Part shown: positions 36-64,000 of the stretch, piece by piece | How the letters are laid out: each line of letters opens with the position of its first letter | Numbering within the stretch: the first letter of the stretch is position 1 | Origin: Mugil cephalus | Lineage: Eukaryota > Chordata > Actinopteri > Mugiliformes > Mugilidae | Assembly: GCF_022458985.1 (NCBI RefSeq) | Contig: NC_061779.1 | Span: 15,359,001-15,423,000 of the forward strand | Direction of reading: 5' to 3' | Length of the DNA stretch: 64,000 nucleotides | Position numbers and translations under genes: made by a program | Notes under the pieces: model-generated | The model's input: only the letters and a program-made list of their open reading frames with translations | What the model was told of the DNA's origin: nothing | The model's database searches: none

Positions 36-5932
<5,897 letters not shown>

Positions 5933-15008: not shown

Positions 15009-18000
15009 CTAGGACCAGCTGCTGTCCATCAAGCCTCCCGTCCCCTTGCGCGTGATGATGCTGTCCGTTGATTTGAGGAGCCTCTCTAGACAGGGCGCGT
15101 TGATTTTGCCCGGCGGCGGGCCCCTGGGCACCGAGTTCGTCTTAGTGTGGCTGTCCGTGCTGGAGGACACAGCGCTGTCCTGCGTTAGGTCTCTGTCTCT
15201 GGGGGATAGCAGGTGCCTGGGACCAGCCTGGGCCTGCTCTGCTGTGGGGGAGCAGATGGGAGATGTGTGGAGCCACTTCAGGTTATTGGCGGAGTAGGCT
15301 CCGGGAGGAGTGAGGTCTGTGACTCTCAGGGCTTTGGCGCCGGCCGGAGGATCACTGACGGTGACGGGGCTCGCTGCTGCGGTGGGGGCCGCCGGAGAAA
15401 GCTGCCGGGAGAGACAGAAACATGATTTAATCATAGCCGCTCTTACTGTTTACTGTCGAGCGACGACACATTCCCAATGCTATAGCTGCGTTTTGCCTAG
15501 AATACCTATTTCTATCTGTTAATGTGAAGACATTATGATGGAAATGGTACATTAAACTGCACCAATAAGCCCCTACAAATATAATGAAAAGTAATGGCGT
15601 AAACATTCTTGGGTCACTTGGAGGCAATGCCACAAGCTGAAAACATCTATATATTACCACCCTAAAAATAGCTGTGTTACCTGCTTACAAAGTACGTAGT
15701 ATGAATTTCAAAATTGAACTCTGGGCATGTTTTGTCCAATTTAGTTTTCAGTTCAGTTTTGTTTTTCATCCGCTCTTGCGGGTTCTTTGGTTTCCAAATG
15801 CTAACGGTCTGTTTAGAGGCTAGTTGCTAAATTCGTCTGCCATTTGTTGCCATTTTTTGCAGAAAACAGATACGTGCCGTGTCTGAAAAAGAAAATAGGC
15901 CTAAAAAAAACAACAACAAAAAAAACAAAAACAAAAAACAACCAAAACAGTTAGCTGAAAGAAGCTAAAACGCTCTGAGCGGCAGGATTAAGAGCACGTC
16001 CAGTTACAACGTGAAAAAAACAACAACAGCAACGTGTAAACAGTACAGGACATAGAGCTCCTGTTCACAGGAAGGTGTGTCGGGATTAAGTCCTCACTAA
16101 TAAAAAGCAAAGGAATGTTCCAGAGCTTTCTGACCTTTCTTATCCCCTTAGGGACACTCCTCCAAAATTACCTTTTCTCCTCTGTCATTGTTCTTAGCGA
16201 ACCTGAGACTGCAGTAATGCCTCTGTAAAAATAGCTTTTAATCCTCCTTTCCCTGTCCTAGACATGTGATTAAATAATAACAGATATTTCAGTCCCTCTT
16301 TCACTGCGTCGTCACCATATGTTCTTGGCAGCAGGCTTACAGTGACAGTGTTGCCACACACACACACACACACACACCCTCACACACACACCCATACCTT
16401 CGGTTTCTTTGTGGGCACAGGTTCTTCTGTCTGGGCGACGGCGAGTTGATCTTGGAGTTTTACATTAGGAAACCAGCTCTTCAGCATTTCCTCCATTTTA
16501 AGAATGATATTAATATATTTCTCCCTAGAAAAAACAAGAAGGGGAAAGAGAAAGAAGGAAATGTTTACTCAAGCTATCAAGCATGAACGTGAGTAATCTA
16601 CCGAAAAATCTTGCCAACCTCTGCTCTGAAATATTATCTCAACATCAAGCTCACACAGGAAATATGCAATCTTGAACAAGCGAGCGAAACGCGTACGCTC
16701 GTCAGCAAAGCCTGCGCTCCATGTGTGGGGGGAAAATTGTCTTAAGTACATTTCTCACATGTTTTGTTGCTCACACGTGGCTCGATGTGTAATGGTCCCG
16801 CTCGCCTCTAAATATAAAACGGCGAAGCCACAGCGGCCTCCGACAGCGCCATTGTGGAAATAAAAACCAGTCCACGCAGGTTCCGTTGGAGGTGGTCACA
16901 GCCAGAGTCCCATTAACTCCCACACGTCAAAACCAGATGGTGAGTGGGGATTAGCCTGTGTCATATGATCGAGGCCTTCCTGCTATATTCCATTCGGAGC
17001 ATGTTAAATTCATGTGAAAGATTATCCGCAACAGTGACTGCTAAAAAAGTCACTTTGATCCTATCTACTATTGTGTTGCTGCAGGGACTGCCAGCTGGCA
17101 GCGCAGAGCAGGCACGGGGAGCGACCGAGGGTGGGGGGGTAAGTCCACCTTCGAGCCTCCACCCCGGCCCCGGCTGTCCTTGTCTGCAGGGAGGCTGCCA
17201 CGCCCATTCTTTGTCTCCCACATGAAGGCAGCAGCTGGTGTGTGAGGGCTTCAATTAGTCTGTGCCAGACCGAGTAGCACTTTGCACTTTCGTATCCGTA
17301 CACCTTGACTGGCCTCGCAAGACGGAGCTTGCGCCTCATTTCGGAGCCGGATCGCGTCACTTTGCCAGGATCCTGAGACGCTATTGTTTTCCGAGAAATT
17401 TCACTCTAAAACGATGATGTTTACTAATTTGTGGGAACTTTTAACATTCATCTATTATCGCGTTTGAATTCATGCTCATCTTTAACTAAACGATCGCCAT
17501 AAAAATATGACTTATTCGATTTACACGTGTGATACATATATATATTTTTTTTACCGAATTTGCAAGCCTTACCGAGAACGGCGCCGATTACCTGCTTCAT
17601 GCCTGTAAAATATTTTAAAGGGATCGTGTAACAGGAGCCGAGGCTTTCTCCTTTAAAGGGGTGATATCATAATCCATTACACTGTCTGGCCAGTGAAGAG
17701 CTAATCAAGCAGACTCAAGTGTGCTGCTCAAACAGTGGAGCTTGATACATTTTTAACAAGATGCCCAGCTACAGTGAGAGCCAGCCATCTCTGCAGTAAA
17801 TGTATCCTGAATGTGTGGGGGTAGCGAGCGGCCTGCTGTGAGCCATGTGTCAGGAACATAATGTAGACCACTCCGACCCACAGATACAGAACACCTCTTC
17901 TAGCCACGCGTTGGAGGACGTATATTAATTACGGTTGAGGTTTAAAAGCTCAGTTGAAGAGAGCACTTAGGCAGCACATGCATACTAGGCTGGCTCGAGC

Positions 18001-19677
18001 ACACGTATGCCCCCGCTATTATTCACAACAGCATCCATAGGATTGGGAAATATCACTGGAACATTATGTGGGTCACGCCGGGGACACTCACCCCATGCAG
18101 GGGTTTTGCAGGACACCCATAATCCTCTGAATCCTGTCCATGGCCACACTCTCCTGGAAACTGCTGAGTCCTGGAAAAGAAGAAAGTTGTAGCATGAGCC
18201 ACACGAACTGTGCTGACAGCAGGCCTGAGTCTGTGTAGCAGATGGGTTGTGTGAAATGTGTGTGCGTGAGGGAACAGACTCCCTGTTTCTGTGGCCAGGA
18301 AGTGTTGGGTCACACAAGGTTTGGGTTTGACCAAGATCACAAACTAAGCAGTTTCGGAGCTTGTCTGGACATGGCGCTATCTTCCAAAACGGCCCTCATA
18401 ATGCTTATCTGACAACTCAATAACAACAGCTGCTTTACTGGAGACCGTGGGACACTATGTTCCCACTCACCTCTGCCAAGCAGAGCTCGCGAGCAAGTCT
18501 AAAGTGAGACATTTCTTCCTCACAGAAGGGAAAAAAAACAAACATTTAAATTGTTTTTATGTTCCCTTTTTAAAACGGTGACCCTTTACCCAGAGTGAAC
18601 TCCCTAATTAAGTCTTACACACACACACTTAACATTTGCGGTTACTTAATAGCCTTGAAACAATACACGTCTCAGGCATCTCACTTTCAAAATCTCAGGG
18701 ACACATATTGAACAAAGACTGGCACGCTGTCTGTTCCCTCTATTGTTTTTTCCCCGAGACTGAAGAAAGATAGCAGTCAAGAGAGACACAGATAGATGTA
18801 GACTCATGTGCTGGGGTTCAAAACACAAACAGAAGACTGACTTACTTTCTTTGTATCTCCCTGAACGAAGGCCATTCAAGATTGCTGACAGTGGATGAAT
18901 GTAGCATTGTAGCTCCAAGCACTGAAAATGATAACAGATTGATTTGTCGGTAACGCATGTAAAACAAAAAGAAAGAAAAAAAAGGCTTACATAAAACCAA
19001 CTTCCACAAACCGCTACTGATAAGTTATGTAATATAATGCTGGTTTGAGACTACGGTTGATTTACGAGTACAGTTCCTCAGAAATAAGGGAGGGTCATTT
19101 TTACTGGAAACGTTACGCATCTGGCACTGCGTAAAACCAGCAGGGGAGTCAACTCGTGCGACAGGGCATGCTCTGGTTTTGCTGACAACCTCCTCATGTG
19201 GGAAGCAGACGCGAGTCACGGGTTATGGCTCACCTTTCTGCTGAAAATTCGGTCTTTCTCCGACGCGTCGGAGATGAGCTGCCGTTCCTTGCGCTCCTCC
19301 TCTGCGGAGCTGTGAGGTCTCTTCAGTGCCTGTTGAGTGTTTTTGCCAGTCATTTTTTCTCCTTGCTGCGTTTTACACAGCCCGGCGGTGGCGCCTCTGC
19401 CCCATTTCTCCGCGCAGCCGGGAGATCCCAGGCCGGAGACCTCCCTGACCGCGCTCCAGTTACCGCCGCCCTCCCTCATCTCGCTGCTCCGGCGGCGGGT
19501 GCTGCTGCCGCCGCCGCTGCTGCTGTCTGATGGGCCCAGGTGCGGAGGGGCGCCGAGGGATGGAGGGGCCTCCGTCTGGCTGCGCTCTCTGGTACAGTCA
19601 GACTCCGGTTCGCTCTCGTTTTCCTCATTGTCGCTAGCCAGCCAGTCAATGGAGTTGTCCGAATCTGTAGCAGACAT
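15009..19677 (-). CDS. ciart: Circadian-associated transcriptional repressor (CHRONO)
   Basis: CIART is a nuclear repressor in the circadian feedback loop. It binds the CLOCK-BMAL1 complex at E-boxes and recruits histone deacetylase. Coding exons are 19677-19234, 18921-18846, 18170-18092, 16524-16398 and 15401-15009, and all phases close to give 372 aa (human about 385). The start is ATG at 19677, 40 bases after an acceptor at 19718. The N-terminus is acidic and Ser-rich, with a KRPHSS basic patch. The conserved core begins FSRKCLELQCYIHPLSAIL and NGLRSGRYKE, then LSSFQESVAMDRIQRIMGVL, then EKYINIILKMEEMLKSWFP; human CIART has the same blocks in the same order. The last exon has LKWLHTSPICSPT, like the human TWIHTTPICN block. 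It converges with dapk2 and points the same way as fbxl22. Human CIART lies elsewhere (1q21), so orthology versus ohnology is open. Confidence 0.93.
16355..16394. repeat. (CA)n microsatellite
   Basis: An interrupted CA-repeat in ciart intron 4, immediately next to the donor of the exon ending at 16398. Confidence 0.9.
19025..19032. promoter_or_regulatory. Perfect D-box motif in ciart intron
   Basis: TTATGTAA matches the PAR-bZIP/NFIL3 D-box consensus TTAYRTAA. It lies in the intron between the first two coding exons of ciart. D-boxes drive light- and clock-dependent transcription in fish; function here is inferred. Confidence 0.4.
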
Positions 19678-19959
19678 CCTCAGCTGCAGGCTCTAACTAG
19701 CACTGACCATCACTGACCTGACGAGGGAAGGGGAAAAAAAAGGGTCATTGTTACCATGTTGCTTATAACACCAGGAGAAGTCAAAAGGTAGAAGCGACTA
19801 CAATTACATTCAAATGAGAAACAGAAGCCAGACAGCAAATGTGAGCCCCGTAGCCAAAATGACAAACTGGAGTGTCCGCGAGCAAACACCGCGTCGTGTT
19901 CGTCGGGATGAAAGAAGAAAAAACATGTAAAGCGCGGTGCACCTCCAGCCAAGCAGACC

Positions 19960-19970
19960 TGACCTAAAGA
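19960..19970 (-). promoter_or_regulatory. RORE-like element near ciart coding start
   Basis: On the ciart sense strand this reads TCTTTAGGTCA, 10 of 11 bases of the ROR/REV-ERB consensus with an intact AGGTCA half-site. It lies about 280 bases upstream of the ATG, in intron 1. A second 10/11 match in the other orientation is at 21290-21300. Confidence 0.35.
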
Positions 19971-21837
19971 CAGAAAGACATCAGAGCACCCGGAGCAGAT
20001 GGTGGCAGCGAGGCCACAGTTGTTGAGACCACAACGACCTGTTTGTTTTGCAGATGCAACACCTGAGCCAGTAAACACAGGCTAGCCGCCATCAGAAGCG
20101 AACCCCCGCGCCATCCCGTGCCGCTCTCGCATGCGTCAGGGCTTTTTGGGTTTTGGTCTCTGCAGATGACTGTAACCCTCCACGTCACGGTGCCACCCGC
20201 AGACTCATTTCTGCATTTTGCATTCGAGTCTTCGCCTTCCACCCCGGCTCGCCAGCTGCCACCACCACACTCATTCATAAACATTGTTAGCTTGTTTATT
20301 CAGGAGGGGGGGCAGGAGTCTGCCACCATGGCGACCGAAGCACCTCAACAGACTGCGGACCTCCCATCAACGCAACGGACACTTGTGGGCCAAGGAAAGA
20401 ACAAAAACATTTAACAAAATGGAAGACCGGCACCGCTCCTTCTCGACAGAAGGATGTCTCGTGGACAACAAGCTGCAACCAACTGCTCTTCGCTGAGGCT
20501 TAATTGCTTGTGGGATCTTCAACATGTTTCCTCAGTGATTAGTGCTCGGAGGAAGTGAGAACTGCCTTTTCAGAGCATGGATTATTTCGGGCGTTTGTAT
20601 GGTTAGCGCCTGGCATGTCTCTCTCTTCCTGTGAAATCTGAGGGCAGAAGAGTTAATTGCTCCCTTGTTCTTTGTCTCAGGATGACCACCTTCGGATCTT
20701 ATTGTTACAGGGGAGGGTGGGTCAGAGATTTGCAGATTCACTGAACGTGAGGCGACAACAAACGTGATAACAGATTGCAGGTCTATAATGTGACATGCCC
20801 CCCCCCTGGATGAGACGTCCACTTCTGTGGAAACTTTGCGCGTTTTGAATCCGAATGTTTAAAATTCAATTCCAGGCAAGCAGAACGTATGGATAAAAAA
20901 GGTGAGGCACAAAAAGGCTCGTATCTAATTCTGTAGCACAGTCTGTCCTTTATCAAACCTTTGTTATATAACACTACTTTCTATAAGGAGTCAATCTTCT
21001 TGGTCACATTTCTGCCATTAAAAAAAAAAAGAGAGAGAGAAGCCAGTCATTTTTTCCTTATCATCTAATAAAGATTGTAGAATATAGCCCACACAGCTTT
21101 AAATGACATCAAGTGAGAGCCGTGACTTGTTTTACCACCTATTTCATTCGATTCCCACATAAAGCAACATACACATGCGGCCAAGTATCCGCCTGCCCTG
21201 GGCCTTTGAAAGCACCACACGGGCCTCCACTCCTCCTTCTGATAAAGATATAAATCACTGCTGTTAGTGCGACTCTTTTTTTTCCAGGAAAAGTGGGTCG
21301 TATAAAATATATAACAGACAACAGCCCACGTCCCTATCTACCTGTGTAGGTGGTTCTCCTCGACGGAGGCGCTCACTCATACTAATGTCTAAATTCAATG
21401 ACAATAAACACCTCAGAGGTCAAACGTCGTTATCTTCCACGGGAGGGGAGAAGGGGGAAAAAATGTGAATGATCCGATCTATCCGCCTGAACGTAGGCTT
21501 CAGATCAGTTGGGCAACAGACACAATAGACTTCCTCATAGTAAATTTGGCAGCATGTACTCTTAGATTATATAAAAGCAGACGTGCACACTGGGTATATA
21601 CAGAGTATTCCACGCGTAAACTGTGATCAAACACAATCAAACATCCAACACAAATGACTGTTTTCTAGCGAGCGTCACGCCTGTGTCAAATTCCTCTGGA
21701 TGATGTTTTTTTTTTTTTTTTTTTTTTTTTCAAAAATAGGACCATCTCAGGGTTATCGCCATAAACACGCGCAGAATAGAGTCGGACGTGTGTGAGAGGG
21801 GTGGTGTGCCGGTGGCCGAGGCGTGGACGGTGCCTAC

Positions 21838-22152
21838 CTTGCCGGGATCTAGCGGCTGCTCGTACTCTTCCTTTGTTCAGCGGGTAAATCCAGCAGGACC
21901 GTCGGGCGGAGAGCAGCTGATGTGCTGGACGTGCGGCGTGTGAGTGGGGAGGCTGCGAAGCCACTGATCGGCCCGTGTTGCTTCTCCCAAGGCAACGTGT
22001 CTGAGAGGGCGGGACCAGCGGGCCGCCGCTCCCCGATTGGCTCGCCCGGCCAGAGCCACCGACCAACCGGCTGCTCCGCCCGGTGCTCTCGCGGAGCAAT
22101 AGGCGAGGCCGGTTTACATATGCAAATGACATGGAAATGACACAAACACGTG
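21838..22152 (-). promoter_or_regulatory. ciart: ciart non-coding first exon and promoter
   Basis: A GC-rich, CpG-dense stretch holds a good donor at 21837 (CCCGGCAAG|GTAGGC on the - strand). It pairs with the acceptor at 19718 upstream of the ATG, which indicates a non-coding first exon ending at 21838. Upstream in the gene's sense are a CCAAT box (22036-22040 on the - strand), an octamer ATGCAAAT (22120-22127) overlapping a D-box-like ATATGCAA, and a perfect E-box CACGTG at 22147-22152. An E-box here fits clock-driven transcription. The exact start site cannot be read from sequence. Confidence 0.55.
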
Positions 22153-45659: not shown

Positions 45660-48600
45660 TCAGGAGAACAGCAGAACTTTCTGCAGCGTCCTCCTGAGCG
45701 GCTCCTCCTCGGGCTTGCTGTCAGGGATCATGTCAGCGCTCCTCTCCGCGCTCAGCCAGATGGTCGGCCTCATGGCCGCGCAACCCCGCAGCCCGGCCTG
45801 GGTGATGTTCCTGCAGAAGTCCACCTTGACTTCTTCCAGGCTGTCCCCGTGGGCCGCCACACCCCGCAGGCTGCAGTCAGTGATGCGCACGCAGTTCTCC
45901 AGGTGGAGGCACCGCAGCTTCCTGCAGCGCAGCAGCACAGAGATCACATCCTGGTCGGTGATGTGCCCGCAGCCGGACAGGGTTAGCGAGAGCAGGTTGG
46001 GACACCTGCGGCACAGAGAGGCAGCGAGAGTCAGTGACATGACCCAGACACGTGATGGAGTGCAAAACCAGTTCTGAGTCATCTCTACGCATCCCGCCTT
46101 GGGAAATAATAGTAGAGAGGGATTAGCGTGTTTGAAGAAGGACAAGTCTTAAGTAAACAGCGCTGTTATTGGCGTGTGTGGCTGATGAATGCTGGGGTTG
46201 AGGTTTAAAACGGAATCAGATAACAGAGGGAAGCATATAAAGGGAGGGGGTGGGGGGCTGATCTGAGCCATATGTGAACGCAATGTAAACCACAAAGAGG
46301 CAAGCAACACGATCTGTTCAGCGATAGAGCAGTTCAATGCCTACACCAAGCCCTCTCTTCTTTACACTCTGCCCCACTGGGACGTATGAGTTTCCGTTCT
46401 CTAAAAGGCGTTTGCGAGCACACGGCGCTAACAAACAGAACAATTACAGGATGTTGGATGAAATACAGCATGACAACGACACAATGTCTGAATAGTTCTT
46501 TCAGCAATCACTTTCTAAAAATGAACGCTGAACGTTGCCGCACATTGAGGTCCTGCAGCACAGAGCTGGCAGACAGACACTCGGATGGATCGCGGATGTC
46601 ATTTATGTTCACTGGAGCACATTACATAAAGACTTACATAATCTTACCACTTCACCACATGTGAGACAAACATATTCCAGCCGCTGTCATGTGTGGAGGG
46701 TGCTGCCCCAGTAACCCCTGAACATGCAACAGCACAGGCAATCCATGTGCCCAGTTACGTGTTTTTTTTTTTTTTATCAGGGGACGCGAGTGCACATTGT
46801 TGACATTAACTAAAAATAAAAGAGGAGGTGGACCGGTGTACTTAGAGACGGTGGTATTTGCAGATTCATTTGCTCTCCAGCGACCGTGTGTGTGTGTTTC
46901 ATCAGAGAAGATAAAACACAGGAAAATGAGCGGAAGTAGATGCAAGAGACATTTAAAGAGTGCACAACCTCTGTTACATAATCTGCCCTCCTGTGACTCC
47001 TTCCCTCACTTGGTGCAGATTCTTTGCTGTGTTGTCTCAAAGCTTATCTGCTGTTCAAACCAGCCTGTCGCAATCGGCCCTCATCAAATTCTCCTCTCTT
47101 ACATTCTCACACATTTTAATATTACACATAAATCCAGCCCATAGCGCCTGTTTTCGTGGGTAGTCACGTTTCCCTTCAGACAGGTGCCTGTATTTTTCTC
47201 GTGCATAGATGATTTCTCATGGACAAAGTGAGAGAATGCACCTGCTGAAATATAAAATGAAAATCCCTGATCTTTTCAAAATAGCGTGAATGGGATTTTT
47301 ATCGGCGCTAAGTGCCGACGAGCAGGGAGCCTCATCTGTGCAGCTACTGTGTGTATCCCTCTGCGGTATTTTCTTCTTTCCGTTTCCGTTTAAGACATGA
47401 TGTAGTTCGCGTTCAGACAAACAACAGCCTGGTCTATGCTGAGCACGACTCGCGCTCGGGCGCACCACACCACTGCTAACCCTTAATCATCTCTCTAATG
47501 ACCCGTTTGGTTTCCTAACGGTTACTTTGTCCGGTCAAATTATCCAGTGAACTCTAAAAGGAACTAAGATGTGCATTTACTGCTCATCCCCATTCGGTCT
47601 CTTAAGTGAAAAGGGTTAAATGGGTTTTGGGAGTCTGCCGCTTCCTTGATTCAGTGCCAGTTATTTTCGAAAGCAGCCGTCAGCTAAAGCTCTAAGTACT
47701 CTGTAAGCAGAAATCGTAACCTGTACCTTAAATAGTAACCCAAGATGTGCTCATTCTTGTTTCGCTAAGAGAAGGCATCAGTTTAGCCAAATGGTGCATA
47801 TCAAAGCGTGGAGCGAAATTGCTCTGAAATATTTAATCATGAAAGTCTCATGCCAGAGCTACTTGTGCCACCCACTGTGCAGCCCACGCTACACTGCACG
47901 TTAATTCATGTTGTATAACCCTGATGCTGTGACCTCAAGTTAATCAAAGAAATTCTTGATAGCTGCTTTAGCGTAGTCATCTGGGTTTAGAGAAGCAGTA
48001 TGCTGTGAACTACTCCATAAAGGGGCCCAAAGACATGCTATGTTTTATAGCTTTTTCCATGGAGTTAAAAAAAAAAAAAAAGAGAGAGAAAAAAGGAAAA
48101 GACACAAGCTTGGCGTCAGAGCTTGCGTGGAGACTTATCCAGGAAGAGGCAGCCAGAGACAGACGCACATGTTCATTCCTCTGACAGCAACAAAGAGCCA
48201 ATTGTAGGCTCCACCTGCATGCATAAATCTCCAGTATGCAGCTGACTGGGAGGGTCTGTGGCCAAATCGCTCTTTTTCACCCTCGCAGCGTCTGTGTGTC
48301 CCCTCCCATTCAGTCACGTGCGCTTGCTTTCCCCGTCTCTTAGATAATTTGAGAGGGGTTATTAGTATGCAATGAGATACAAGCCCCAGACAAAGTAGGT
48401 GGTTCTAGTTTTGACTTGTCTCCCAGCTCTCATGCTCTCAAATTTCACAATACAGGAAATCCTCGCTGGGCTGTGCTCTGAGCCTGCCCATTTTCCCTCC
48501 TCTTGTCCCAGCCAGCTGCGGTGGCCAAGCTCCCTCACATCAACGGCTATTACTGGCCGCCTTGAAGAAATTATCCAGAGACCTCATTACGCCTCTCCAG

Positions 48601-49530
48601 GCTGATTCCTGCGTGGAGCCAGCCACGCACACAAGGCCAGCGAACCAAAACAGCTAATTTTCGAGCGATCTATCAAATCCATCTGTCACGTCATTCGATA
48701 AATCTAATTTGATATGTGACCACAGTTATGTTAGTTAATAGAATCAGTCTTATGACCCACAGATGTGTCATTTTTCCTGTCTCTATAGCGAGCTCTGGAT
48801 TGACCATCTGTTTCTAATGAGTTAGTTCCCCGCTGCCTACAGCTAAACATGGCAGTTTGACGAGGCCATGTGCCTCTAAATGAAAACAGTTTTGTTTCTT
48901 TTTGCGGCTGTGAATGACCCCGAAAAACCCCAAAACTGTGTACTCATCCTCATGACGCATCTGACCAAAAGTCACTTTTTTAGACCAACTCAACAGGTCA
49001 TGCCATAGTTATGTTAAACGCTCTGAAGTCAATATATGTATCTACATAGGGTGAAACTAAATACCTAAGGGAACAAGCTCAATGTAAACTACTTTTTTTT
49101 TGCCACTCTCTGCTGATCACCAGTGATCATTAGGAAATAAATATTGGCAGGTGTCTTTCCAAAGCGCAGAAAAACCACACACAAAGACTCACATGAGGCA
49201 GACTTGGGCCAAGAAATTGCTAACCAGGCTTTCATGTTTACTGCAGATGTCCTTCTGGAAAGAGGTCTTCAACCAGTCCTCGATGTTGCACACTTGCAGG
49301 ACCCTGCTGGAGTACCAGCAGATAGTCAAGTGGCGCAGCGAGGGTCCCAACACGAAGTTGTCCCTTCGGAGTTGACACGGGGAGCTGAAGTGCAGTAGAT
49401 TCCAGAGGCGGGGGTCCAGGAATACCTCGCGCAGCTGATGACAGGTAAGGGACAAACTCCTCCGGTTGTCCTTATCCAGGAAGGAGAAAAGGTGAAGGAG
49501 GCACTCCCGGTTGAGCTGAGTGAGATGCAT
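45660..49530 (-). CDS. fbxl22: F-box and leucine-rich repeat protein 22
   Basis: FBXL22 is the substrate-recognition subunit of an SCF ubiquitin ligase, found at the sarcomeric Z-disc of heart and skeletal muscle, where it promotes turnover of alpha-actinin and filamin. Two coding exons, 49530-49193 and 46005-45660, join in phase 2 to give 227 aa. The F-box is at residues 1-45: [20 protein letters not shown], then [12 protein letters not shown]. The segment [20 protein letters not shown] and [20 protein letters not shown] match human FBXL22 closely. Exon 2 holds leucine-rich repeats, [18 protein letters not shown] and [17 protein letters not shown], ending in a charged tail. The frame is open 50 codons above the chosen ATG, but homology starts at MHLTQLNRE. 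It lies upstream of ciart and downstream of usp3, all on the same strand. Confidence 0.95.
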
Positions 49531-49700
49531 GGTGAGCCGTCCCGAGACATAAAGAAAAAGGGCCTCGTCCCCGGGGCAGCGATAGGCCTGCTGGTAGGCA
49601 GCAACAATGAGCCCACAGCCCGTATTGTGTGGCCTAGATACATGATGCCCCCTCAGGCACACGCTTGGAGGCCTGCACATATAAGGCCGTGGAGTGGCGG

Positions 49701-49710
49701 GCTATTTTGG
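49701..49710. promoter_or_regulatory. CArG-like box upstream of fbxl22
   Basis: GCTATTTTGG (CCAAAATAGC on the gene strand) is one base from the SRF consensus CCWWWWWWGG. It lies about 175 bases before the fbxl22 ATG, where a muscle promoter element would be expected. One-mismatch matches are common, so this is only suggestive. Confidence 0.3.
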
Positions 49711-53008: not shown

Positions 53009-53340
53009 TCATTGTGCAACAGTTTGTATGGCTTGGTGAGCTTCCTCTGCTGCAGCCTTGTCTGAGGTATCCCTATCTGTTGCAGCGTCCCCTGACGACG
53101 TGTCCGCCTCATCTTGTTCAGTCGTGTCTTTGCTCACATCTCCCAGGGTATCTTGGGCTTTCTCGTCCAGGATATTCACGTGTAAGGCTTCCACATCTGT
53201 CAAAACCATGTCTGTGGCTACTGTATCTGCTGCAACCTTGTCCTGAGAGACTGTTTCTGATGAAACTCTGTCCACAGCTGCTGTGTCCACAGCAGGCTTA
53301 TTTGTGGCTGCGCTGTTTGAGGCAGTCTTGTCTGAGGCCC
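53009..53340 (-). other. usp3: Repetitive C-terminal extension of usp3
   Basis: After YILFYVE the frame stays open for about 110 codons. It encodes a tail dominated by Ala, Asp, Thr, Val, Lys and Ser with a degenerate D-(K/T)-x-A pattern, for example QDKVAADTVATDMVLTD and SSGDAATDRDTSDKAAAEEA. It has no aromatic residues and looks disordered. At DNA level, related blocks recur (CTGCTGCAGCCTTGTCTGAG, CTGCTGCAACCTTGTCCTGA on the + strand), suggesting growth by tandem duplication. There is no splice break between catalytic domain and tail. Confidence 0.8.
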
Positions 53341-56300
53341 CCTGACCGGTCTTCTCCACGTAGAAGAGGATGTAGGCCTTGGCCTTCCTGACTGTGTCCT
53401 CATTGGTTAGAGTCACTGTGCTGTCGTTGAAGTGGTACCAGCGGCCCTCGTGGCTGCCATATGCTGTATAATGCCCTGATCCAACCCTGCAAATGCAGAC
53501 ACATATATCACATCCTGCAGCCTGGCTCCTAAGAAGCCTTCCTTTATTGCTGCTAAAGCAAGAGGGATTCACTCAAGTTGACAGCAGCAGTGCAACATTG
53601 CCACTTAGAGGCCAACTGTCACAGCAGCCCTTTGATTAAATTGCACATTCAGAGCCTCAGCTTAATCCCATTTAGCATTTAGTGGCTACATGAATTTTTA
53701 AACTGCAGTGGTCGACAAGGTTTTAGACTAAATTGGATCTAAATTGTTTATGCCCTGACTGACTGACTGACAGCTGCTGCTAAGGAGAGCTGGCTGGCTG
53801 ATGACATACATATGTCTTAATTTTGGTACCATCAGAAAACTGCTGACTTCAAAAGATATTTCAAGATACTGCCACATGAAGTACTTAAATCAGAAGATCG
53901 TAATGAAAGAGAGTAAACTTAAACCTAGAATCTATTAACATTGGTGACATATTTTCCATTCATAATGCATAAACTAAGAAACTTAGGTTAGTATTCTTGA
54001 ATCTATGTAAGCACTGAAATAAAACCACAGATTCAAGCCTGAAAGATACAAAACATCTACTCACCCAGATCCATGATGCACCACGACAGCAGCAAGGTCA
54101 TACAGGCAAGTCCCTGGTAATGAGTTCTCTGGCTGCAAACAAGAAAGAGCCAGATGAGAGGAAAATCTGCACTTTCAGTTCTACCCACACCATTAAACCC
54201 CAAGATTTACAGACAAGAAAGCAAGTCTTACCAAAGACTATACAATTAACACAAAAATACCTGGAGAATATACACAGATACCTATATAGTTTGTTTTTGT
54301 TGGGAAAAAAATAAAATGTACATTTAAAAAAGAGAATTTTTAAATTCAAATTTAAAAATTTAAATTAATTTAAAGAATAACAGCATCCGAAAGATAATTT
54401 GAGATAATAAACGATCATTTTCTATTTCCTCCAATGTTCAGGATTGTGACAGACAAGAGATCTACGGTAGAATAGCGCCCCCTGGAGCTTGTAGGGGGTC
54501 CGATTCATCATAAACCCTTGAAACAGAATGATGTAAGCTTTTACATAAAGATCCAGAGTTCAACATCGAGGAAACAAGTCGACATCGCCTAGTAGAGATC
54601 CATCAATAAGCCACAATTGCAGATTCAACATTCATTTATTGTCATTTTGTGTGTACATAACGAAATTTTAGGATCAATTTCATAATCATTTCCCTTAGTT
54701 CAGGACGTGGCCAACAATGATCCATCAAACTGCCCAGCAGAAAAACATGTTTTTCCCCAGTGTGTGGCTCTGAGTCTATCAGCAGCAGCAGGATGTCCAG
54801 ATGTCCAAAATTCTGTTTGAGCAAATCACCAGTTTGGCAAAGGAGCTATTGTAATTTTGGAATATAAACACAAGTCCTATAATATCATTATTTCAAACAG
54901 ACTATTCTTCACGCTGTCTGCGGCTGCTCTGTTTGTGCTCGACTTACAATGCCGTCATCACAGTTCACGGTCCTAGTTCACATGCGATATTCAGTCAGCT
55001 GTGTGTCATCGCTTCAAATCCATCCATGTTGTGCCTAGTGTCTTCAATGCTTTTTTACGGTTACCAAGCCATAACCCTTCATTACAAAAGGTTTGAATCT
55101 GGCACAAGTGCACATGGCTCTCGTGGCACATTATTTTGTAACTTTTCCAAAATGAGAGCATCCTGACCCTAAATCTTCTCAGCTTTCCTCATTAAACTGC
55201 AGTATTCCTGTTCTCATTAATGTAGTATTTGCCCATTCAACCTGCTTGTGTAAGAGTCAGTGAATTACTACATATCATAAGCTCAAAACCTATATTGTGA
55301 GATTTCTTGATGTGCATTTTTTTTAAGCTCACCTCAAGTAAGTAGCCCCTCATGTCCAAGCCTCTCAGTGGGAATTCCACATAAGTATCCACCTTGTTTC
55401 TCAAAAAGGCGGTCCAGTGGAACCGCTTAAGGTGCAGACACAAAACCTGCAATGGGAAATAAAACCTCCATTTATACCAAAGTCGCAGTGTTTTCCACAG
55501 CTCTTTGTTTCTTAGAGAATATTAAATCAAAGAAGGAAAACGTGTAACATAATTGAGAATTGCTTTCATACTTTTGGCAGCTTCTGGATCCAGAACTTCT
55601 TAGTTGATTTCTGTCGCTTTTTACACTTGTGGCAATAGTACAGCTCTGTTTCGTCAAGTTCTTCCAGGTCAGTGAAGCTTCGCAAGCAGTCTAAAAGTAA
55701 GTCACACAAATGGAAAATGTGCTCATGAGTTTGAGCATCACACACTTCAAACTAAAACAAGAAATACCTAGAAAACCTTAATTTAGTGGAAGCATTACCG
55801 CGTAAGGTGCATGTTGGCCCCGGCTCCTGGTCCTTACTTCTCTTTTGTCTGAACTGACTGGGAATGTCCAATGACAGGTCTAAGACAAAAAAAGATAACT
55901 TAATAAGGAACCACAATCAAAACACTTTCCTTGTCTTGTATACTGAAAACCCACATTATATGTGTGCTATCTTGTATAAACATTCCCGCATTAACTTAAA
56001 TACTAAAAGGAAAGTTTACAATAGAAAGATTTTGATTAGTTCACAAAATTACTGAAAAGAATCAAAAATGAGACAAGTTGTAGAAATGCTCAGCATTCGT
56101 TGTTCTCTTACCAAGAAACGGATCAAACTTCCGAGATTCTGTCCCACATATCAGGCAGTTCACTTCATTCTGAAGTATACCACCAAAAATAGATGTGACA
56201 ACACTGGCAGTCCCATTACTGGAAAAGACCAAAAGGCACAAATCAGTTTTAATCAGTTAAATTTCATATATTAATATGTATTCTTCTTGGGGACCAGCAT

Positions 56301-62496: not shown

Positions 62497-63086
62497 CTAC
62501 GACATTTCCTGAAGAGGTGTGTCAGTCTGGGGTTCTTTACTTTTCCTCGGAGACTTCTTCGATTTCTGTTTCCTGCAAAGTAAAATAAATATTAATTGCA
62601 GCAACATTCACGGTTAGTCATGATGCTATGTACTAGCTTGTGTCTAGAAAAAAGAAAATGCCTTACTTTGACCTTACAACTAGGAAGACCACGGTTATGA
62701 TCACGGCGAATATGACGACTGCGAGCAAAACTCCAACGATGATTGCTGTAGAAGATTAACAGATTTGGATATGCGTAAATGGATTAGCTATTCAAATATA
62801 TAAGAAACAAAACACTTTTATGGAGATTGTTGTGCTTAGTAAGAACCTGATACAGGTTATTTAAAAGCCTAAGTTAGCTTAAGATAAGGTCTCAAAGAAT
62901 ACTATAAAATCTGGCCCAAGGTTTCAGTTCAGCAGTACAAAGTGTGTATTGTGTGTCGACAGACCGATGGGTGTGTCCGGCTCGTCCTCCTCCGGGTCAT
63001 CACCATCATCTACAAAACAAAAATATACAGTAGTTAATTGGTAAAAAAAAAAAAAAAAAAAAAAATTAGATTAACAATTGTGTTTA

Positions 63087-63118
<32 letters not shown>

Positions 63119-64000
63119 CTGTTAGTTTTAAAACATTAAGTGACGTATTGCCACATTTGAGAGGGGTGTGCTCACCGTGGATGCCATCACAGGTGGCGTT
63201 GCAGCTGCCTTGGTCAAAAAATCTGTTTCCGTTTCCCATGCATCCAGTCCAAAGGAATTTTTTGCACTTGTCGTGAACCGAATCATAGTAGTATCTCAAG
63301 AAACTGCCGCCGCATTGGCCGCTTTCCTTTTTAAAGTGGCAAGCATCGGAAGCTGCGTAGAGAAAACATCGTCCACATTATCATCATTGCTCAAACGCAG
63401 TCAGAGCAGTTGCCGTCAGTTCAGTTTGTTAAAAGTTTTATTTTAGAACCACAACTGAAGGATTATATGTGGAAGACCTGTCTATTATTAACTCTGTATC
63501 AAGTTTTTGACTGTCCAAGTACTCCTTCTCTTTCACCACTTGGTGGCGTATCACTAATACTCAATACTGACATATTTTTTCCTACAGCCTTTGAGGACAT
63601 TAAGTAATTATGAAGAAGTAAACTTTGAAAATAGTTGAGTCTATTGAACTGACACACAAATCAGCGCTGACAGCTTTAATGGTGCTAATTAACATTCTCC
63701 TTTTTCAGATGTGGCACAGTCATTACTGTCTATTGTCAGGTCGAGGCAGATAAGTGAAGAAGCCGTTGCAACGAAGGAGGCTTTATGATTATGCGCTCCT
63801 CTCATGGCCATAAAACTGTACCTCATCAGCCAATTCATGCTCCAAAGTCCTCAGAGAGGACAGGAGACATTTCTTTGGCCTACTTTTAGGCAACATTTCA
63901 TATTGTATCAGGCATAATGCATATTTACATCCTCTTACCGTCCATTGGGTATCTACTCTCAAAATTGGTTGAACAGTTTCTCAGGCACTCTCTTTCGTTA
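62497..64000 (-). CDS. Transmembrane Kunitz-domain protein, 3' part
   Basis: This is the end of a gene that continues beyond base 64000. Exons are 64000-63939 (partial), 63352-63176, 63009-62965, 62745-62667 and 62572-62497 (TAG), all in phase. The first ends a Kunitz domain (ECLRNC). The second encodes a whole Kunitz domain with exact spacing C-x8-C-x15-C-x7-C-x12-C-x3-C. Residue P1, after the second Cys, is Gly (GQCGGSF) rather than Lys or Arg. Next come an acidic linker (DDGDDPEEDEPDTP), one membrane helix (IIVGVLLAVVIFAVIITVVF) and a short basic tail ending PLQEMS. At least two Kunitz domains plus one membrane span recall the HAI/SPINT inhibitors of membrane serine proteases, but the tail does not match those I remember, so no symbol is given. 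Confidence 0.85.
63043..63118. repeat. A-run and (CAT)n repeat in Kunitz-gene intron
   Basis: An A-run of about 23 bases (63043-63065) is followed by about ten ATC units (63088-63118), in the intron between the Kunitz exon and the acidic-linker exon. Confidence 0.9.
63536..63549 (+). promoter_or_regulatory. CTCF-like binding site, forward orientation
   Basis: CCACTTGGTGGCGT fits 12 of 14 positions of the CTCF core. It lies in the Kunitz-gene intron, and its orientation diverges from the site at 54473. Confidence 0.35.

Follow-up and report, generated by a model that had tools for sequence, protein, structure and literature searches.

Does the ciart gene found in a 64-kb stretch of the Mugil cephalus genome (contig NC_061779.1, positions 15,359,001 to 15,423,000; the whole of it hereafter called the window) correspond to the CHRONO gene that mammals carry on 1q21, or is it a second copy left by the two early rounds of vertebrate genome duplication (2R)? 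A sequence-only reading had put forward the second copy, with a single ancestral copy in another place as the alternative. We conclude that the window gene is very probably a 2R ohnolog of CIART, the 15q22-side partner of 1q21 CIART, which this fish retained and which seems to be missing at the equivalent locus of mammals. Synteny gives the ohnolog reading good support, and the earlier proposal gains from the CA12/CA14 flanks, the published paralogon of human chromosomes 1, 15, 5 and 19, the intron-bearing open structure of the gene and its lower identity to the other copies.

Judged from its sequence, the window gene is unambiguously a genuine member of the CIART/CHRONO family. It lies on the minus strand of C10 in five coding exons with GT-AG splice sites throughout, which join into a single 372-codon frame, and the product of 372 amino acids matches the Pfam family Ciart (PF15673) with 141.2 bits against a cut-off of 27 (E = 5.4e-41). 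The spliced frame and this score bear out the earlier claim that the five-exon gene encodes CIART/CHRONO. A PDB search with the protein gave 0 matches. Exon 1 (19234..19677) begins with ATG at 19677, encodes an acidic low-complexity N-terminus and the start of the conserved core (DRIFSRK), and ends at the donor GTGAGC. Exon 2 (18846..18921, 76 nt) carries the core region CLELQCYIHPLSAILNGLRSGRYKE, and exon 3 (18092..18170, 79 nt) carries the best-conserved part of the core (LSSFQESVAMDRIQRIMGVLQNPCMG). The end of the core (EKYINIILKMEEMLKSWFPNV) and a basic KKPK segment are encoded by exon 4 (16398..16524). Exon 5 (15009..15401), which closes with the stop codon TAG at 15009, retains near the C-terminus a TQDSxxSS motif (here TQDSAVSS) that is common to all three copies in the genome.

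Three ciart loci and their neighbourhoods

The genome searched comprises 634.8 Mb in 24 contigs, with the window at C10:15359001-15423000. A six-frame Pfam search placed ciart exons at three loci, namely the C10 window, C11:8.726 Mb and C14:15.819 Mb; nine of the 11 matches at E<=10 are exons of these loci, and the other two (C5; C11:23.96 Mb) are weak. The window ciart is separate from the 1q21-type copies of the same genome, the three loci being distinct. Open frames, of 421 and 334 amino acids, are likewise present in the C11 and C14 copies, which follow the same five-exon plan with second and third exons of the same 76 and 79 nt; their products score 169 and 144 bits against Pfam Ciart. 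Because five coding exons and the equal 76- and 79-nt exons are common to all, none of the three copies is a retrocopy, and this origin was ruled out for genes that all keep introns and open frames. Two scans of viral contigs and one of genome contigs yielded no CIART relatives.

The neighbours of the C11 and C14 copies were named from Pfam domains and best PDB matches. The order on C11 is RPRD2 (8.696-8.710 Mb), PRPF3 (8.715 Mb), CIART (8.725-8.728 Mb), CA14 (8.738-8.743 Mb) and CRABP2 (8.758-8.761 Mb), where PRPF3 matches hPrp3 at 1.5e-20, CA14 is matched at 3.8e-22 with CA9 as the runner-up at 8e-15, and CRABP2 leads CRABP1 narrowly (1.3e-18 vs 5.4e-17). On C14 the order is SCAMP (15.794-15.796 Mb), CRABP2 (15.808-15.810 Mb), MRPS21 (15.8136 Mb), CIART (15.8185-15.8200 Mb) and RPRD2 (15.823-15.832 Mb), with CRABP2 at 4.5e-22 vs 2.3e-18 for CRABP1 and RPRD2 at 2.3e-20. 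The MRPS21-type exon (C14:15813641-15813751) is 4.7 kb from the C14 ciart and was the sole match found genome-wide. CIART, RPRD2 and CRABP2 are kept on both contigs; MRPS21 was found beside the C14 copy only, and next to the C11 copy PRPF3 and CA14 were observed (no genome-wide search was made for PRPF3). This distribution may reflect reciprocal loss after the teleost duplication.

An excerpted goat gene list contains CA14, APH1A, CIART, MRPS21, PRPF3 and RPRD2 (PMC9902602), and the flanks of the C11 and C14 copies match it; therefore these copies are most likely the teleost (3R) pair descended from the mammalian 1q21-type CIART locus. A passage on a stickleback quantitative trait locus interval also groups Crabp2a, Ca14, Prpf3 and Rprd2b (PMC4880927), and a quail paper names CIART and APH1A in interaction networks only, not as map neighbours. 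Among the neighbours that the sequence-only reading had suggested for a second ciart, ca14 (on C11) and mrps21 (on C14) were found in place and aph1a was not, as Aph-1 lies on C3. Two further open ciart genes exist in this genome, both among 1q21-type neighbours, and they refute the alternative by which the fish would have one ancestral ciart only, sited elsewhere than in mammals; no support was found for that alternative, and its probability is close to nil.

Unlike mammalian CIART, the window gene sits among DAPK2, FBXL22, USP3 and CA12, so by synteny it is not the one-to-one ortholog. The window begins with the 3' part of a DAPK2-type kinase gene (36..3468, plus strand), recognised by its domain, for which the DAPK3, DAPK2 and DAPK1 scores are nearly equal, and continues beyond ciart with an FBXL22-type F-box gene (45660..49701, minus strand), which has weak leucine-rich repeat matches, and with the C-terminal exon of a USP3-type ubiquitin hydrolase (53009..53572, minus strand), also a domain match. 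The searches do not separate paralogs, and the names DAPK2, FBXL22 and USP3 are those that we presume from domain and gene order. These genes fit the usp3-fbxl22-dapk2 neighbourhood described earlier. To the right of the window, at a distance of 49.6 kb from the start codon of ciart, lies a carbonic anhydrase for which CA12 is the best match in both exons tested, followed by an alpha-mannosidase and then NEIL1, and a tropomyosin is located 0.63 Mb to the left (C10 14.74 Mb). The earlier label of a 15q22-type locus, with aph1b and ca12 close to ciart, is supported by CA12, about 50 kb away; APH1B is not there, the sole Aph-1 locus found being on C3.

No gene was recognised in the approximately 23 kb between ciart and FBXL22 (22500-45600), although HERC1 itself was not searched for. 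In mammals the large HERC1 gene presumably holds the corresponding position. Between USP3 and CA12 there is a Kunitz-type inhibitor gene on the minus strand (window 63084-64000 and L020:1-167) with two domains, the first recognised by Pfam and the second by visual inspection of an open reading frame; the mammalian map would not lead one to expect it there. A short conserved translated stretch recurs at about 2206-2474 of the window, near DAPK2, and beside the RPRD2 genes of C14 (L017:4462-4548) and C11 (L007:270-332), and is probably a dispersed repeat.

Age and origin of the window copy

One support for a 2R age is the human paralogon. TNFAIP8L2 (1q21.3), TNFAIP8L3 (15q21.2), TNFAIP8 (5q23.1) and TNFAIP8L1 (19p13.3) were described with their surrounding blocks as a four-part 2R paralogon, in passages that do not name CIART (PMC5489176). 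A CIART gene on each side, 1q21 as well as 15q, fits the event that gave rise to these four parts. The TNFAIP8L3/TNFAIP8L2 pair is likewise split between the 15q and 1q sides (PMC5489176). By its human positions, CA12/CA14 is split in the same way. Both partners of these two pairs are kept in mammals, whereas in the case of CIART only the 1q21 side seems to be kept. In accordance with such a split, CA12 on C10 and CA14 on C11 are one pair of flanks related as 2R paralogs. When the genome was searched with the N-terminal exon of the C10 CA12, the best other match was the CA14 that flanks ciart on C11 (44.4 bits), followed by a match of 41.3 bits on C1, with seven other matches in all. The genome has 17 carbonic-anhydrase loci, and 0.29% of it lies within 50 kb of any of them.

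We infer the following history. The 2R duplications would have left CIART on both the 1q21 and the 15q22 sides, and the 15q22-side copy would have been kept in this fish beside DAPK2, FBXL22, USP3 and CA12 and lost in mammals. The 1q21-side gene would later have been doubled by the teleost duplication to give the C11 and C14 copies, and the window gene would have lost its own 3R partner, a fourth copy. The 3R partner region of C10 was not pinned down by searches with DAPK, tropomyosin, FBXL22 and USP3: DAPK-like matches elsewhere fell on C3 (53%) and C7 (42%), the F-box exon of FBXL22 had no second match in the genome, and USP3 gave a weak match on C19 only.

The lower identity of the window gene to the other two copies speaks for the ohnolog reading. 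Over the 80 amino acids of the core, C11 and C14 are identical at 55 positions, the window gene and C11 at 48, and the window gene and C14 at 46, while 40 of the 80 positions are identical in all three copies. Fifteen core sites unite C11 and C14 against the window gene, and the other two pairings have 8 and 6. Two stretches are closely shared by C11 and C14, S[DE]SEQ[AT]ED[DE]AD at the N-terminus and QLHIPVKKR[RK][LM]SW in exons 4/5, and of each the window gene has a loose counterpart only. The window core is also less like a presumed human core than the other two are (48 of 80 positions, compared with 66 for C11 and 55 for C14).

Several observations weigh against a 2R origin. In a four-sequence tree test of the three copies and the presumed human core, the best topology pairs the window gene with C14, with a bootstrap proportion by resampling of estimated log-likelihoods (bp-RELL) of 0.66 vs 0.255 for the topology that an ohnolog should give; the three topologies are less than 1.4 likelihood units apart, and none is rejected. 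The window gene has the longest branch in this test (0.49), and its fast evolution could mimic age. CA12/CA14 is the sole paralogous pair of flanks found between the compared C10 and C11/C14 stretches, and the next carbonic anhydrase trails it by 3 bits. The large RPRD2 exon of C14, when searched against the genome, matched only itself, so the C11 gene owes the name RPRD2 to its CID domain and to five exon pairs with the C14 gene (54-80% identity). Tropomyosin, with matches on six contigs, has none on C11, and its C14 match is 15 Mb from ciart; the TNFAIP8 genes map to C3, C11 (1.72 Mb) and C6, with none on C10. Mammals carry APH1A and APH1B, and this pair was expected as a marker, but one Aph-1 locus was found in the genome (C3:28.13 Mb), and a regular-expression search with APH1 motifs over the compared neighbourhood regions found none. 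APH1 was rejected as a linkage marker, its single locus being on C3. The absence of a window-type CIART from mammals, which seems to hold, is read from the gene list of one cattle genome-wide association interval, which has DAPK2, HERC1, FBXL22 and USP3 without CIART (PMC10804543). The HERC1 gene of that interval makes a local rearrangement of the window block relative to cattle possible. Two other observations were made during these searches: a DAPK-like exon lies on C3, 2.8 Mb from the Aph-1 locus, and the tropomyosin profile matches in a short stretch at C19:953856-955838 are full of TAG stops and probably come from a tandem repeat resembling a coiled coil.

Because sequence alone does not settle the age of the gene, it is synteny that carries the argument. 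The window gene might instead have arisen later as a dispersed copy of a 1q21-type ciart of teleosts, which landed in a 15q22-type region by chance and evolved fast, and both the lean of the four-sequence test towards the pairing with C14, which leaves such a duplicate unrejected, and the long branch of the window gene speak for this origin. However, the probability of inserting by chance no farther than 50 kb from one of the carbonic-anhydrase loci is about 0.3%, and the locus nearby is CA12, whose N-terminal exon finds its best other match in the very CA14 that flanks ciart on C11. The two stretches common to C11 and C14, at the N-terminus and in exons 4/5, are loose in the window gene and also argue against a dispersed duplicate, which we regard as quite improbable.

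Predicted role in the clock

Mammalian CHRONO was reported to bind the C-terminal region of BMAL1 and to lower the binding of BMAL1 to CBP, which constructs keeping residues 108-212 also do, in the passages of one study (PMC3988006), and excerpts of the work of another group describe histone deacetylase (HDAC)-dependent repression and rhythmic E-box occupancy (PMC3988004). The window gene resembles mammalian CIART/CHRONO (C1orf51, Gm129; 1q21) in its Pfam Ciart family, conserved core and basic segment. The part of the core that corresponds to human residues 108-212 is present and aligned, the human numbering being taken from the presumed human core. By analogy, the window protein likely shares the mammalian mechanism: it would enter the nucleus, its conserved core would bind the BMAL1 C-terminus and keep CBP off BMAL1, and this exclusion would dampen E-box transcription. 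The looseness with which the window protein matches the two stretches shared by C11 and C14 hints at a different set of partners or a different strength.

As to its own control, the stretch 19678-22152 presumably holds the 5' untranslated region and promoter of the window ciart. A CpG-rich stretch lies upstream at 21.75-22.25 kb, in which a presumed non-coding first exon with promoter can be read on the minus strand (21838..22146), with a candidate donor GTAGGC just below 21838. The CpG-rich stretch includes a CACGTG E-box (22147..22152), by motif match a possible BMAL1/CLOCK site through which the clock may drive expression of the gene. Because the window contains 26 CACGTG sites, this one is weak evidence of clock control when taken alone.

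We hypothesize, with a slight lean in favour of it, that vertebrates began with two CHRONO genes and that the second lineage ('CIART2', more than 450 million years old) still represses BMAL1 separately in fishes, with a specificity of its own, and was lost in mammals. The gene could also be a 2R ohnolog by descent that no longer acts as a clock repressor, having taken on a diverged role or being on its way to loss; its core is the most divergent of the three, and the stretches shared by C11 and C14 are loosely matched in it. However, a frame open over five exons, the 40 core positions of 80 that are identical in all copies and the preserved C-terminal TQDSxxSS motif make such a fate rather unlikely.

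Fish ciart genes and the CHRONO family

CHRONO was described as unique to vertebrates in a passage of PMC3988006. It is treated as a single vertebrate clock repressor, with a single gene known in mammals. In fish, zebrafish ciarta and ciartb are named among circadian genes in excerpts of PMC5397488 and PMC11884735, and Astyanax ciarta cycles in both cave and surface fish, according to a passage of PMC8297936. The zebrafish genes are two named duplicates, for which the passages print no locus, whereas M. cephalus has three copies. Two other fish studies use ciart in passages that do not specify the copy (PMC9944912; PMC8614003). Of the 22 bases of the reverse primer printed for quantitative PCR of Takifugu 'ciart' in the excerpt of PMC8614003, 18 agree with the C11 gene, against no more than 16 in 30 shuffles. 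Its forward partner agrees at 12 of 19 bases at most in any of the three copies, and the Takifugu gene is perhaps of the C11 type by this primer comparison, which is a weak lead. Automatic annotation presumably names the third gene 'ciart-like'. Among the literature matches listed, as judged from titles and the starts of abstracts, there was no paper on the origin of the fish ciart duplicates. The excerpts of a gar paper on clock-gene duplication cover 11 families and do not mention ciart (PMC6723592), and the search listing gave 0 occurrences of ciart for two further surveys (PMC7575087; PMC8674837).

The window gene is an additional member of the known CIART family that comes with a testable evolutionary claim; it is no new kind of system. 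If the fish ohnolog predates the split from mammals, comparisons of mouse and fish CHRONO must use the 1q21-type copies. Furthermore, fish clock studies that take ciarta and ciartb as the whole family would miss one of three repressors, and knock-outs of one or two fish ciart copies may be buffered by the third. The loss of the gene in mammals would also become a change in the clock's negative limb that can be dated.

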